29,996 nt of DNA from a virus, in IMG/VR virus record IMGVR_UViG_3300037584_000465, positions 1-29,996 of that record; one strand, written 5' to 3'. This document shows, one piece after another, positions 18,814 to 26,149 of the stretch (its first letter is position 1; each line of letters begins with the position of its first letter). The position numbers and the translations under genes are program-made. Below the pieces are notes generated by a model. That model did no database searches and had not been told where the DNA came from. It worked only from the letters and a program-made list of their open reading frames with translations.

Positions 18814-18878
18814 TTGACAAAATTTTTCTAAAATCAATGACAAAATTTTTATTATGTAGTAATCTTATATATAGGAGG
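18814..18878 (+). promoter_or_regulatory. Early promoter region with 23-base-spaced direct repeat and strong RBS
   Basis: TGACAAAATTTTT occurs at 18815-18827 and again at 18838-18850, an offset of 23 bases (about two helical turns). The first copy includes a consensus -35 (TTGACA, 18814-18819). The second provides ATGACA (18837-18842), which is 17 bases from TAATCT (18860-18865), a plausible -10. AGGAGG at about 18873-18878 serves the first gene. The region is A/T-rich and probably bent. Repeats at this spacing could be activator or repressor sites. The exact -10 is not certain. Confidence 0.55.
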
Positions 18879-18883
18879 TTGAA

Positions 18884-19048
18884 ATGAGTAATGTATTATT
18901 CTTTCAAGACATAGTAGAAAAGAACAAATTAAAAGGTTTGACTCTTAATTGTCTATGTTGTGAAGAAACTATCAAATTCGATGGTAGTGAAAATGTTTTG
19001 GATGAGGTTTACTTCTGTGAACATTGTCATTATCCAATAAATTTTTAA
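18884..19048 (+). CDS. Small zinc-ribbon protein
   Basis: A 54-residue protein with two Cys pairs: LNCLCCEET near residues 22-27 and YFCEHCHYP near residues 44-50, giving a zinc-ribbon shape with about 17-20 residues between. The first gene after the early promoter, with a near-perfect AGGAGGTTGAA site before its ATG. Such small early zinc ribbons often bind nucleic acid or host proteins; the target here is unknown. It is too short for most gene finders. Confidence 0.65.
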   Translation: MSNVLFFQDIVEKNKLKGLTLNCLCCEETIKFDGSENVLDEVYFCEHCHYPINF

Positions 19049-19454: not shown

Positions 19455-19624
19455 TGATTCAAGAATGGTTTTATCTATTTCTTGTAATGTATGGATTCAT
19501 TAGTTTGATTTTTACATTTTGTTATATATCTTTATGGATCACAGAAAAAAGACTAGAGGATAAATCTGATTTTGTAACTAGATTACAAAAAGGAGAGATT
19601 CTCGACAAAAACAATATATTCTGA
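19451..19624 (+). CDS. Small single-pass membrane protein
   Basis: A 57-residue protein. Residues 5-31 (EWFYLFLVMYGFISLIFTFCYISLWI) form one strongly hydrophobic segment, followed by a charged cytoplasmic-type tail (TEKRLEDKSDFVTRLQKGE). The ATG overlaps the upstream stop and has GGAGGTTGAA before it. A function in host membrane takeover or superinfection exclusion is possible but cannot be read from the sequence. Confidence 0.6.
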   Translation: MMIQEWFYLFLVMYGFISLIFTFCYISLWITEKRLEDKSDFVTRLQKGEILDKNNIF

Positions 19625-19788
19625 TGTGTGAATATTGTGAAACTACAAAAGAGTATATTGAGAATCATAATACTCATGGGATTGAAGTTAACGTTTGTAC
19701 TGATTGTGCGATAAGAAATGGTTATAGAACTGTTGATTGGTATAAGGACAATGAACATAAACTAGACTTTGATTGGAAACAAATCTGA
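19624..19788 (+). CDS. Small zinc-ribbon protein
   Basis: A 54-residue protein with CEYC at residues 2-5 and CTDC at 25-28, then a Trp/Asp-rich tail (RTVDWYKDNEHKLDFDWKQI). The CxxC-19-CxxC layout suggests one zinc ion. Its ATG overlaps the upstream TGA and its own TGA overlaps the next ATG, so the three genes are translated as a chain. The target is unknown. Confidence 0.6.
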   Translation: MCEYCETTKEYIENHNTHGIEVNVCTDCAIRNGYRTVDWYKDNEHKLDFDWKQI

Positions 19789-21404: not shown

Positions 21405-21631
21405 AAACTTATACAATTATGGTTATTTTACAAAAAGATTATAAAGTATCAGACATTTCACAAGCAAATAAAATGTTTCAACAGGATAAATCTTTATTTC
21501 ATCCAACATGGAAGATTAAAAATGAAATGTTTTTAAAAGAAGATTTAGAAAAAGAAAAACATTCAATAGAAAATGTAGATATGGGTATTGAACTTGAACT
21601 AGGTGCAAAACAACTTGGAGAAGAAGAGTGA
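21401..21631 (+). CDS. Early protein of unknown function
   Basis: A 76-residue protein (MKTYTIMVILQKDYKVSDI...) with an N-terminal beta strand and an acidic helical C-terminus. The ATG at 21401 overlaps the upstream stop (ATGA). An earlier ATG at 21392 is possible but lies inside the previous gene. The stop overlaps the next gene's GTG by four bases. Nothing else can be said from the sequence. Confidence 0.5.
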   Translation: MKTYTIMVILQKDYKVSDISQANKMFQQDKSLFHPTWKIKNEMFLKEDLEKEKHSIENVDMGIELELGAKQLGEEE

Positions 21632-22065
21632 TCACTTTTGCAATGTTAGATCTTTTGTTAACTTGTAGTTTGTTATCTGATATTCATTTTAACCTAAATA
21701 CAGTTAACGACATTCCGCAAGTCGTTGAACAATGTCAGATAATAGAGGAGGTGCAAGAGTGGATTCCTTTGGTAAGTTCCACATTTCCAAAAAAAGAAAC
21801 CGCTCTTGCACTTACCATAATTTATTGTGAAAGTTCAGGATATTCAAAAGCTACAGGAATAAACAAAGACGGATCACGTGATCAGGGCTTATTTCAGTTT
21901 AATGAACGGACAGAACGTTGGTTAGAAAAAGATATATATAAAAGAGATCTTGATATGTATGATCCCGAAACAAACGTAAAAACTGCTAGATGGTTGTCTT
22001 ATAACGATGGATGGCATCATTGGAATAGTTCTAAACATTGTTGGGGTAAATATGAGTCTAACTAG
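21628..22065 (+). CDS. Lytic transglycosylase (SLT-like muralytic enzyme) with N-terminal export segment
   Basis: A 145-residue protein. The first ~20 residues are hydrophobic (ITFAMLDLLLTCSLLSD) and look like a signal or signal-anchor, so it may leave the cytoplasm without holin help. The catalytic domain has IIYCESSGYSKA with likely catalytic Glu68, then GINKDGSRDQGLFQFN (the .DGS.D.GLFQ.N signature of transglycosylases), DPETNVKTARWL and GWHHWNSSKHCWG. It cleaves peptidoglycan between the sugars. A GTG start overlaps the upstream stop (GTGA). Its place among early genes, away from the holin, is unusual: it could be a lysis enzyme, or help early entry or envelope changes. Confidence 0.78.
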   Translation: MITFAMLDLLLTCSLLSDIHFNLNTVNDIPQVVEQCQIIEEVQEWIPLVSSTFPKKETALALTIIYCESSGYSKATGINKDGSRDQGLFQFNERTERWLEKDIYKRDLDMYDPETNVKTARWLSYNDGWHHWNSSKHCWGKYESN

Positions 22066-22240
22066 ATATTTATGTTTGGAATGTGATATATGGAAGAAAA
22101 GAGGAACAATATTTAGAGGTTTTAGATTTATTTGTTCGGATTGTGATGTTACTTATTGGGAAGAACAAAAGAAATGGTCTAACGATGGGAGAGTATATTA
22201 TGCAAATATCAGTACAAAAAGTACCGAAGAATGTTTATAG
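22052..22240 (+). CDS. Com-like small zinc-ribbon protein upstream of mom-like gene
   Basis: A 62-residue protein with CLEC (residues 8-11) and CSDC (28-31), two CxxC pairs 16 residues apart, followed by TYWEEQKKW and a polar tail. It overlaps the transglycosylase end by 14 bases and the mom-like start by 41 bases. In phage Mu, the 62-residue zinc-finger protein Com is encoded just before and overlapping mom, binds mom mRNA and unlocks its translation. The size, Cys layout and overlap match that arrangement. The frame is also open upstream, but the ATG at 22052 gives the natural protein. The function is inferred from context; two other zinc ribbons are encoded nearby, so Cys pairs alone are weak evidence. 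Confidence 0.6.
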   Translation: MSLTRYLCLECDIWKKRGTIFRGFRFICSDCDVTYWEEQKKWSNDGRVYYANISTKSTEECL

Positions 22241-22904
22241 TGATTGGATTTTAAATAAACATTACGCAAAAAGAATGTGTCAAGTATCACATGCTTATGG
22301 ACTTTATATTGATGGAATAATATCAGGTGTTGTTACTTATGGAATGTCTCCATCGGCTACACTAGCAGCGTCAATAGCGGGAGAAGATTATAAATCTATC
22401 GTTTATGAACTTAACAGGTTAATAACAGAAAATAACTTACCAAAAAACGTTTTATCTACTTTTGTATCGAAAACATTTAAGTTATTACCTAAACCAACAA
22501 TTATTGTTAGTTTTGCAGATCCAAATAGTGGCCATCATGGATATATTTATCAAGCGACTAATTTTATCTATACCGGAATATCTTCAAACACAACTCAATA
22601 TCGTTATCCTGATGGTAAAGAGTTTCATTTTAAAAATTTTAGACATAAGAAACATAGCTCTACTTTTAAAAAACAACTAGGTAAACCTGATGTAACTAAT
22701 AAAGATATTATAGAGTTTTATGATCTACGAAAAGTAAATATAGAGGGTAAACATCGTTATATCTACGTCATAGGATCTAAGACAGAAAAAAAGAATATTA
22801 TGAAAAACTTTCGTTTAGAGATACTAAAATATCCTAAAGGAGAAAATAAAAATTACGAAGTTGATTTCGACAAAATGGAGAAACAACTGAATCTATTTGG
22901 ATAG
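22200..22904 (+). CDS. Mom-like DNA modification protein (GNAT-type fold)
   Basis: A 234-residue protein with the pattern of the phage Mu Mom family, which converts adenines in phage DNA to a bulky modified base and so blocks restriction. Visible motifs: NKHYAKR (19-25), GLYIDGIISGVVTYG (34-48), YELNRL (69-74), NVLSTFVSKTF (83-93) and SFADPNSGHHGYIYQATNF (104-122), then IYTG. These match the family's GvvtfG, eL.RL, N..S.f and S.aDp..gH.G.iYqA.n.. positions. Starts upstream are open to 22083, but ATG 22200 has GGGAGAG about six bases before it and matches the family's N-terminus. A weak five-base hairpin holds the start codon in its loop. Length equals Mu Mom (about 230). Confidence 0.78.
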   Translation: MQISVQKVPKNVYSDWILNKHYAKRMCQVSHAYGLYIDGIISGVVTYGMSPSATLAASIAGEDYKSIVYELNRLITENNLPKNVLSTFVSKTFKLLPKPTIIVSFADPNSGHHGYIYQATNFIYTGISSNTTQYRYPDGKEFHFKNFRHKKHSSTFKKQLGKPDVTNKDIIEFYDLRKVNIEGKHRYIYVIGSKTEKKNIMKNFRLEILKYPKGENKNYEVDFDKMEKQLNLFG

Positions 22905-22914
22905 GGAGGTTGAA

Positions 22915-23163
22915 GTGTCAGATAGAAACAAAGTAAAAGAAATATTGATAAGAAATAAAGATACTTGGGTATGTAGTTCTGTTTTTTTAAGAGAACATTT
23001 TATAAAGGATTATGCACAGAGGGTATCAGAGGTTAAAACAGAAAAAGTAAATGGTTTTGACATTGAAATACAGGGCAAGAAGTGTGATATGCATGATCAC
23101 AGATTATTTATGTATAAATTATCAATAATCGCACCAAATTATGAACGCAGTACCTTATTCTGA
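22915..23163 (+). CDS. Winged-helix-like early protein
   Basis: An 82-residue protein: VKEILIRNKDTWVCSSVFLREHFIKDYAQRVSEVKTE reads as helix-turn-helix, followed by FDIEIQGKKC as a wing and a short HDHRLFMYKL strand. The layout repeats that of the gene at 21153 (three helices, wing with CxxH), suggesting distant paralogues. Start is GTG 22915 with GGGAGGTTGAA upstream; a longer TTG start would run through this site. It directly follows the mom-like gene and could take part in its control, but nothing proves this. Confidence 0.55.
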   Translation: MSDRNKVKEILIRNKDTWVCSSVFLREHFIKDYAQRVSEVKTEKVNGFDIEIQGKKCDMHDHRLFMYKLSIIAPNYERSTLF

Positions 23164-23557
23164 TGATATAAATAGAGGTTATGAAGTTGTTAAAAAACAT
23201 CTTTTGGATCTTAATTTGTGGAACAGAATTGTCAATAAAAAAGAACTAGATCCAATAAGAGATCATCATATATTTTTTGATCATTATGGAGGAGTTGAAT
23301 TTACTCTACACGTCAAACAAATCCAATCAAAATGGTCAATAGTTTATACAAGAAGAGATCTTTTTAATCTTTTAACTGAAACTCCTGTTTCTAATCAAGT
23401 TTTATGGGGTATAAGCTATGATGACTTACTAAATATTTTATTTAGTGTTTTTGAAGAATTAATAAAAGAAGAAAATAAGTTACTAGCTCAAGCAATAAGG
23501 GAATCGGAATACAGAAAAGCTGCAAAGAAAATGCATTACGATTTTGATGAAAATTAA
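23141..23557 (+). CDS. Early protein of unknown function
   Basis: A 138-residue charged protein, starting at an ATG inside the end of the previous gene (23-base overlap). The middle has RDHHIFFDHYGGVEFTLHVKQIQSKWSIVY, which looks like a beta-hairpin region, and the C-terminus is a long helix (EELIKEENKLLAQAIRESEYRKAAKK). No family recognised. It overlaps the next gene by 11 bases. Confidence 0.55.
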   Translation: MNAVPYSDDINRGYEVVKKHLLDLNLWNRIVNKKELDPIRDHHIFFDHYGGVEFTLHVKQIQSKWSIVYTRRDLFNLLTETPVSNQVLWGISYDDLLNILFSVFEELIKEENKLLAQAIRESEYRKAAKKMHYDFDEN

Positions 23558-23939: not shown

Positions 23940-23978
23940 ATGGACTGTTGTGGACAGGGCTGTTGCTCAGGAGGTTAA
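23940..23978 (+). CDS. Micro-ORF for a Cys-rich peptide, possible leader
   Basis: ATG at 23940, four bases after a GGAGGA site, encodes MDCCGQGCCSGG and stops at TAA. Four cysteines in twelve residues form two CC pairs. It overlaps the start of the large acidic-protein gene in another frame. Its last codons form the AGGAGG at 23969-23974. It may be a translated leader that controls the next gene, or a metal-binding peptide in its own right. It could also be chance, although the site spacing is good. Confidence 0.4.
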   Translation: MDCCGQGCCSGG

Positions 23979-26149
23979 GTAGATTAATATTTGTATTGTG
24001 TTTGATATGTCCACAAATAGCTTTTGCAGATCACGTTCCTACACAGCCTCCATATAATCAATCGATTGAATTAGATACATCTTCAGGAGATCTAACTATT
24101 GGAATATATTCTTCTGATGGTTTTGAAGATAGTCCACCTGAAAAATATACTATATTTTTTACTATTGGAGATACTTCTATTGACACAACTTCATCTTTTT
24201 GTGTTGCAACATCTTTTGGACATGGTAATAATTTATCGTGGCAGTATTATGTTTTTTCTTTAGAAAATTTACAATATTACTTTGAAAATCCTTATGGTAC
24301 TTTCAGAACACAAATAAGATCCGATAACGATACAGATAATAGTTACAGTACATTAACAACTGAACAGACGATAAACATACCTAATCAACTTCCATTCGTA
24401 AATTTAGGGAATTGGTCTGCTCCGTCTAGTAATTGTAATGATACAAGTACAACTACAACATCTTCGACTACTACTACTACAACTACTACAACTACTACAA
24501 CTACAACTTTGCCACCAACTACTACTACATCTTCTACTACAACTACCACAACAACAACTACTACAACGTTGCCTCCAACAGAAGAAGAATTGAACTTTAT
24601 TGAAACCGGTATTTATGAAACTAACGAAGAAAGATCTAGTAGAGAAGAAAATGAAAGAGTTGTGGCTGCACAGAATTGGGAAAGAGATAAGAATCAACAA
24701 GAAACAGGATATTGGGAGTTAGATTCTGAAAGACGGGAGAGAGAATCTAGGACTATTGTTATTGGAGATTCTAAAGTTGAATATACACAATCAGAAATAG
24801 AAGATGGAACAGTTGAAAGAGATCAACAGAGATACGACAACTTAAACAATTATGGTTGCGAAATGACAGATGAACAAATAGAACGCGGGGATTGTATAAT
24901 AGAAATAGATGAAGAAGAATACAATACCGAAGAAGAGTTTTTTGAGGATGATGATTTGGTATTTGAATTGGAGTTTGAGAATGAAGATATCGAATATAAA
25001 GATACTCTTATCGATTTATCTGAGGAAGAAATACTTGAATTTGAAGAACAGATGGAGATTAATGAAAAAAAATTGGAGCTTGAAGAAAACTTTCAGATAT
25101 TTGAATTTGAATCTGAAGAAGAAGAAGAGGAATTTATTAAAACCATTATTGAACTTGAAGAAATTGACTTTGAAGAAGAGTTCGGAGTTGAAGAAGAAGT
25201 ATTTGAGTTAGATTTAGATTTTGAAGATATAATCATAATTACTGAAGATGAAACAAAAGAAGAAGAATTACCTGAAGAAATCATTGAAATAGACGAAGAA
25301 ATAATAGAAAAAGAAGATTTTACAGAAGAAATACTTGAAGAAATAGAAGAAGAGATCTTAGAAGAAATACTTCCGGAAGAGATAACGAAAGAAGAATTTG
25401 AAGAGATCAAAGAAAAAGATATAGAAGATCTTACTCAAGAAGAACAAGAAATAATAGTTGATGTTGTAGAAGAGATAATTGAAGAAGTTGTAAACATAGA
25501 GATTTTGGAAGAAGAAATAGAGATACTTGAAGAAGAAGAGTTGGAAGAACTTACAGTAGAAGAACAAGAAATCTACGAAGAAGAACTAGAAGAAAAAGTA
25601 GAAGAATTTGTTGAAACATTGCAAACTGAAGAACTTGTAACTGTTGTTGAACAGGTGTCAGAGATTGGAGTTCAATCCTTAGAATCTGCAGACATACAAA
25701 CAATAAAAGTTGTTCAAGCAGTAGTTACAGAGATAACAGATACAGAAACAGTTGAAGAATTAACGGAGGAACAAGTAGAAACAGTTGCAGAGGTTTTAGG
25801 TTTTGAAGAAACTGAGGACGTAAAAATAATATCTGAGATCTTAGAAGATCAAGATAATACTGTTGTTAAAGAGGCTGTTGAGGAATATGTTGAAAGAAGT
25901 ATAAAAAATGGAAAAGACTCTTTGATGCCATACACTTTGGCTGATTCTATCGTGGAAGTACAGGTTGAACAGTTTCTTGAAAATCCTATTCAAAGTTTGG
26001 TAAATGTAGATATTTCAGATATAAATATAGAAGATATTAATTCAGGAATGACTCAGGATCAAAGAGAAAAATCTCAAGAGGTTGTTATTCCAACAATTTT
26101 GGTAAGAATTGCATCTATGTTTAGTATGGGTTATAGGAGAGAGATTTGA
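23948..26149 (+). CDS. Large secreted, extremely acidic protein with poly-Thr linkers
   Basis: A 733-residue protein. It has an N-terminal signal peptide (basic LRRLSR, hydrophobic LIFVLCLICPQI, then AFA before DHV); a ~130-residue beta-rich domain; two poly-Thr linkers each ending LPP (about residues 168-212); a charged helical segment; and about 240 residues made mostly of Glu, Ile, Leu and Asp (about 318-558). A helical part (VVEQVSEIGVQSLESADIQ, ETVEELTEEQVETVAEVLGF) and a conserved-looking end with VVIPTILVRIASMFSMGYRR follow. The Thr/LPP linkers are typical of exported proteins of marine actinobacteria, which suggests a host-derived gene. The start is uncertain: TTG 23948 gives a full signal peptide but is poorly placed to the GGAGGA; no start follows AGGAGG 23969 at normal spacing. 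Function unknown. Confidence 0.7.
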   Translation: MWTGLLLRRLSRLIFVLCLICPQIAFADHVPTQPPYNQSIELDTSSGDLTIGIYSSDGFEDSPPEKYTIFFTIGDTSIDTTSSFCVATSFGHGNNLSWQYYVFSLENLQYYFENPYGTFRTQIRSDNDTDNSYSTLTTEQTINIPNQLPFVNLGNWSAPSSNCNDTSTTTTSSTTTTTTTTTTTTTTLPPTTTTSSTTTTTTTTTTTLPPTEEELNFIETGIYETNEERSSREENERVVAAQNWERDKNQQETGYWELDSERRERESRTIVIGDSKVEYTQSEIEDGTVERDQQRYDNLNNYGCEMTDEQIERGDCIIEIDEEEYNTEEEFFEDDDLVFELEFENEDIEYKDTLIDLSEEEILEFEEQMEINEKKLELEENFQIFEFESEEEEEEFIKTIIELEEIDFEEEFGVEEEVFELDLDFEDIIIITEDETKEEELPEEIIEIDEEIIEKEDFTEEILEEIEEEILEEILPEEITKEEFEEIKEKDIEDLTQEEQEIIVDVVEEIIEEVVNIEILEEEIEILEEEELEELTVEEQEIYEEELEEKVEEFVETLQTEELVTVVEQVSEIGVQSLESADIQTIKVVQAVVTEITDTETVEELTEEQVETVAEVLGFEETEDVKIISEILEDQDNTVVKEAVEEYVERSIKNGKDSLMPYTLADSIVEVQVEQFLENPIQSLVNVDISDINIEDINSGMTQDQREKSQEVVIPTILVRIASMFSMGYRREI

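Follow-up and report, generated by a model that had tools for sequence, protein, structure and literature searches.

A Mom-family DNA modification gene overlapped by a small zinc-ribbon gene without detectable homology to Com in a marine tailed phage

We analyzed a 30-kb virus record of 29,996 nucleotides (the window), whose terminase, head-protein and tape-measure genes mark it as that of a tailed phage, of marine origin. In it, a gene for a small C4 zinc-ribbon protein overlaps the start of a mom-like gene (Table 1); the coordinates of the two ORFs, the lengths of their products, the two CxxC pairs and the extent of the overlap are all as given in the initial annotation, and the two additional zinc ribbons it reported nearby are present as well (stop to stop, 18875-19048 and 19582-19788). 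The zinc-ribbon gene in turn shares 14 nt at its start with the 3′ end of the SLT transglycosylase gene, which forms the left edge of a variable slot before mom. In remoter relatives the overlap between the zinc-ribbon gene and mom measures 29 nt, as against 41 nt in the window. Both ORFs are conserved in relatives and show dN/dS below 1 (about 0.03-0.5 across relative pairs for the zinc ribbon outside the overlap, and lower for mom), so each of them is a real gene. Elsewhere in the window, a 733-aa ORF (23948-26149) combines a tract rich in Thr with a very long acidic region rich in Glu and Ile.

Table 1. Features around the mom-like gene of the window (positions refer to the window)
Feature	Position	Strand	Basis or remark
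Lytic transglycosylase (SLT domain) gene	21628..22065	+	PF01464, E=1.3e-9
C4 zinc-ribbon protein, 62 aa	22052..22240	+	ORF, cysteine pairs, purifying selection
Purine-rich ribosome-binding site GGGAGAG	22187..22193	+	GGAG with 8-nt spacer to mom ATG
Proposed hairpin arms ATATT/AATAT	22195..22209	+	Letters present, structure unsupported
Mom-family DNA modification protein, 234 aa	22200..22904	+	PF25680, PHROG 1384, PDB 8bv8
Overlap of zinc-ribbon 3′ end and mom 5′ end, 41 nt	22200..22240	+	ORF coordinates
82-aa protein after mom	22915..23163	+	Retained in close relatives
138-aa protein	23141..23557	+	Apparent relative follows the mom-less zinc ribbon in L041 (by eye)

Mom of phage Mu is a DNA-disguising enzyme. 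The 234-aa protein of the window is a true member of the same family, as had been proposed, and three lines of comparison agree on this: the curated Pfam model of Mom (PF25680; E=1.7e-37, 129.5 bits, curated cut-off 27.1), PHROG 1384, "Mom-like DNA modification protein" (E=6.6e-56), and a direct match of the single sequence to the solved structure of Mu Mom (PDB 8bv8, annotated as a methylcarbamoylase; E=3.3e-9). Although it shares only 28% identity with Mu Mom, and the gene upstream of it differs from that in Mu, it has the motifs KHY, ELNR, FAD, YQA.N and YPK in common with Mu Mom and the PHROG 1384 proteins, and an alignment of 14 diverse Mom proteins, Mu Mom included, retains 28 invariant columns. 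The Mom-like proteins of PHROG 1384 come from phages of Listeria, Staphylococcus, Bacillus and others, and 287 phage records matched, from Listeria to Vibrio. Mom enzymes are known from other phages (PMC7824862), so that their occurrence outside Mu-like phages is already well established and not new. A group of long Mom proteins of about 297-315 aa (L053:1983-2873, L060:1965-2891, L061:1980-2924, L070:1542-2483, L082:1977-2918 and L058:771-1694) carries some 80-100 extra residues, helix-turn-helix-like, after the conserved motif EFHFRN. By itself this insert matches phage DNA methylases or methyltransferases in seven of eight records, the eighth having no annotation, which suggests a DNA-recognition domain common to Mom and methyltransferases. 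A 423-aa Mom (L073:1965-3233) has a second insert that weakly resembles YunG (E=5e-4, below the cut-off).

The cysteines of the zinc ribbon are C8/C11 and C28/C31, spaced C-x2-C-x16-C-x2-C. Searches of Pfam, PHROGs and NCBIfam gave no match above cut-off, no counterpart turned up in the phage collection, and the family occurs in 17 viral contigs; as far as such comparisons can tell, it is a separate, undescribed small family. One of its members, a 50-aa zinc ribbon on contig L041, ends before the part that overlaps mom in the window, and no Mom match was found on this 24-kb contig, which may be a fragment. A resemblance to the WW domain at residues 39-58 of the window protein (E=8e-4, below the cut-off) was judged to be a by-product of the double coding with mom, since the mom-less L041 homolog stops before these residues. 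Among solved structures, the top profile match was the anti-sigma-G factor Gin (PDB 5n7y, E=0.003), with weak similarity over 30 residues (CxxCD..K.RG....kFIC.DC) and the four cysteines in register. This match, together with the homolog on a contig without mom, would fit a host-takeover protein, for example an anti-sigma factor or an RNA polymerase-binding protein, that stands beside mom by position only. However, the Pfam model of Gin (PF10764) does not match back, as a reverse search of ten contigs of the zinc-ribbon clade returned nothing at E<=1, and the predicted structure of the zinc ribbon is too poor for structural comparison (pLDDT 49.5); we consider such a role unlikely.

We then looked at the gene pair among relatives of the phage. 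Ten aligned members representing the clade have both the zinc ribbon and mom, and the pair is kept where Mom is 66% to 95% identical to that of the window. In L004-L007, by contrast, mom was found alone, and in L041 the zinc ribbon alone. The Mom proteins of L004-L007, which share 83-86% identity with that of the window, form one clade, sister to that of the window (tree support 99/97); no zinc ribbon was found anywhere in these records, one of which is a 30-kb contig, although the contigs may be fragments. The initial annotation had named relatives that have mom but lack the zinc ribbon as a refutation of its reading, and L004-L007 provide exactly this case. Its force is reduced, nevertheless, because the swap in the sister clade also changed the stretch just before the mom ATG, so that loss of a regulator may have gone along with loss of its site. 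Between the SLT gene and mom, L004, L005 and L007 encode a protein of 219-229 aa that looks Dcm-like by eye; that of L004 has no Pfam match, and only that of L007 reaches the cytosine methylase model (E=0.045). The slot of L006 holds an N6_N4 DNA methyltransferase (E=3.3e-32). The slot before mom is exchanged: it carries either the zinc ribbon or a gene for a DNA methyltransferase or a protein resembling one, in a pattern that would fit a single replacement of the zinc ribbon, with one more exchange separating L006 from L004, L005 and L007. Varied DNA methyltransferases (Dam, MT-A70, N6_N4) are also found around the region in relatives (L008:562-1080, L033:1766-2308, L041:1975-2640 and L041:4587-5297), pointing to a DNA-modification island.

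Of 69 mom loci, 17 have an ORF with two CxxC pairs that ends close to the start of mom, nine of them belonging to the clade of the window and one to Mu. The remaining seven, out of about 58 distinct loci, are no significant excess over the 10 such cases among 151 control ORFs (Fisher p=0.26), and several of the seven look HNH-type or larger; a general association of zinc ribbons with mom was rejected. The isolated phages JeffCo, vB_EauM-23 and LMTA-57 encode, directly before mom, a protein that lacks CxxC, and in Riggi the gene upstream of mom lies in the opposite orientation. In another phage (L023:2723-2956), a 77-aa two-CxxC protein without a match to the Pfam Com model ends 4 nt inside the mom start.

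The initial annotation had placed the mom ATG in the loop of a weak hairpin and suggested a translational switch. The arms exist as letters, but they form no hairpin. The 15-nt stem-loop alone has a minimum free energy of 0.0 kcal/mol and the two arms pair with a probability of 0.001-0.002 in a 121-nt context, whereas the inhibitory hairpin of Mu, computed in the same way, reaches -8.7 kcal/mol and pairing of 0.85-1.0. The wider region is no more stable when folded than shuffled sequences (z=-0.18), and the consensus fold of ten relatives is empty. In these ten sequences four of the five hairpin pairs are invariant, while the fifth is broken in three of them with no compensation; the invariance of the arms is explained by double coding, since the upstream arm specifies a conserved Tyr-Tyr in the zinc-ribbon protein and the downstream arm lies in the codons with which Mom begins. 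With no folding energy, next to no pairing and no compensatory change, the hairpin was rejected. The mom start of the window is an open, ordinary Shine-Dalgarno start, and the site before the ATG is purine-rich in the ten aligned zinc-ribbon/mom relatives. Its accessibility ranks 16th of 37 among the genes of the phage, but this is a weak test: the opening energy is uninformative because even Mu mom, 16th of 50, is not singled out by it.

Com of Mu is a translational switch, and the 62-residue protein had been taken for its counterpart. The two are alike in that both are small (about 62 aa) C4 proteins with x16 spacing, and both genes overlap the start of mom, by 41 nt here and by 50 nt in Mu if the GTG start is used for the count; Com genes (PF10122) from Mu, Pseudomonas, Moraxella and other phages likewise extend into the beginning of a gene for DNA modification. 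A similar size, four cysteines and their spacing are generic features. Of the two family matches expected from a database check of the pair, the Mom match was obtained (PF25680, 8bv8) and the Com match was not. The Pfam Com model, which recognized Mu Com as a positive control (E=2.7e-9), gave no match to the window zinc ribbon and four relatives at E<1, nor anything in ten clade contigs at E<=1. Pairwise BLASTP between the zinc ribbon and Com yielded no alignment, hhalign of an eleven-relative zinc-ribbon profile against six Com proteins gave a probability of 1.3%, and the Com signature residues LL and IKCPRC are missing from the aligned zinc ribbon. Homology to Com was rejected on the results of BLASTP, Pfam, NCBIfam and hhalign, and at the level of sequence the zinc ribbon has no detectable relationship to Com. 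The identification as Com is not supported: the Com model is silent, the hairpin is missing and the pair is not always found together, the zinc ribbon being absent from the records of a sister clade that retains Mom.

A zinc ribbon unrelated to Com could still have converged on its function, binding the mom mRNA near the start and controlling translation. Such an analog would account for the shared size and cysteine spacing, the overlap of 29-41 nt (50 nt in Mu) with a Mom partner and the retention of the pair in 10 aligned clade representatives, and the joint loss of zinc gene and upstream start sequence in the sister clade would agree with a cis module that can be removed as a unit. The layout also recurs with real Com: in B3, Phipami28 and Chuche the gene that its relatives overlap, by 31-56 nt, carries the annotation DNA (adenine) methyltransferase in place of mom (L144:1201-1386 and 1356-2150; L142:1201-1392; L140:1186-1392). 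The target gene of Com thus seems to change while the overlapping layout stays. Com recognizes the motif CC(N)2-3GAG near the mom start (PMC6483171). This motif occurs twice in Mu but not once in the window and eight relatives, although a diverged protein could use another one. Unlike the Mu system, the window mom thus has neither inhibitory hairpin nor Com motif, and its Shine-Dalgarno site is ordinary and its accessibility mid-range. In addition, a zinc-ribbon homolog sits on a mom-less contig, and the protein is near neutral (10 K/R, 9 D/E) whereas Com is basic (14/8). On balance we consider a convergent analog of Com improbable, and it is likewise improbable that an unrelated zinc-ribbon family evolved control of mom independently from an overlapping upstream gene, which would make such an overlapping regulator of Mom a convergent design in phages unrelated to Mu. 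That the zinc ribbon is a diverged true member of the Com family is hardly credible: its cysteines are in register with Com in the profile alignment, but profile probability, signature residues and Pfam model all speak against it.

The reading that we find likely is that of a Mom enzyme accompanied by a non-Com zinc ribbon in a swappable slot, with coupling in cis, a zinc protein acting in trans and no switch of the Mu type. By analogy with Mu Mom, the enzyme, which has an acyltransferase fold, most likely modifies adenines of the phage DNA, and this modification would protect it from restriction. The 41-nt overlap and the open Shine-Dalgarno start would most simply amount to cis translational coupling between the two genes, and a target of the zinc protein, in the host or the phage, is probably reached in trans. 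A start-codon hairpin switch like that of Mu does not operate at the window mom, and the conserved translational switch outside Mu-like phages that had been proposed finds no backing in a locus with no hairpin, no detectable homology to Com and genes that are uncoupled in relatives.

With its Com-like layout, the case is mostly an ordinary new instance of the known enzyme Mom. The set of Mom enzymes now extends to a group of uncultured marine phages and, with Mu as the positive control, the case shows that a Com-like layout can occur without detectable Com homology or an RNA switch. If the zinc protein did control mom, a rare translational switch would have arisen by convergent evolution. The exchange of the slot with DNA methyltransferase genes points to a modular organization of DNA protection in these phages.
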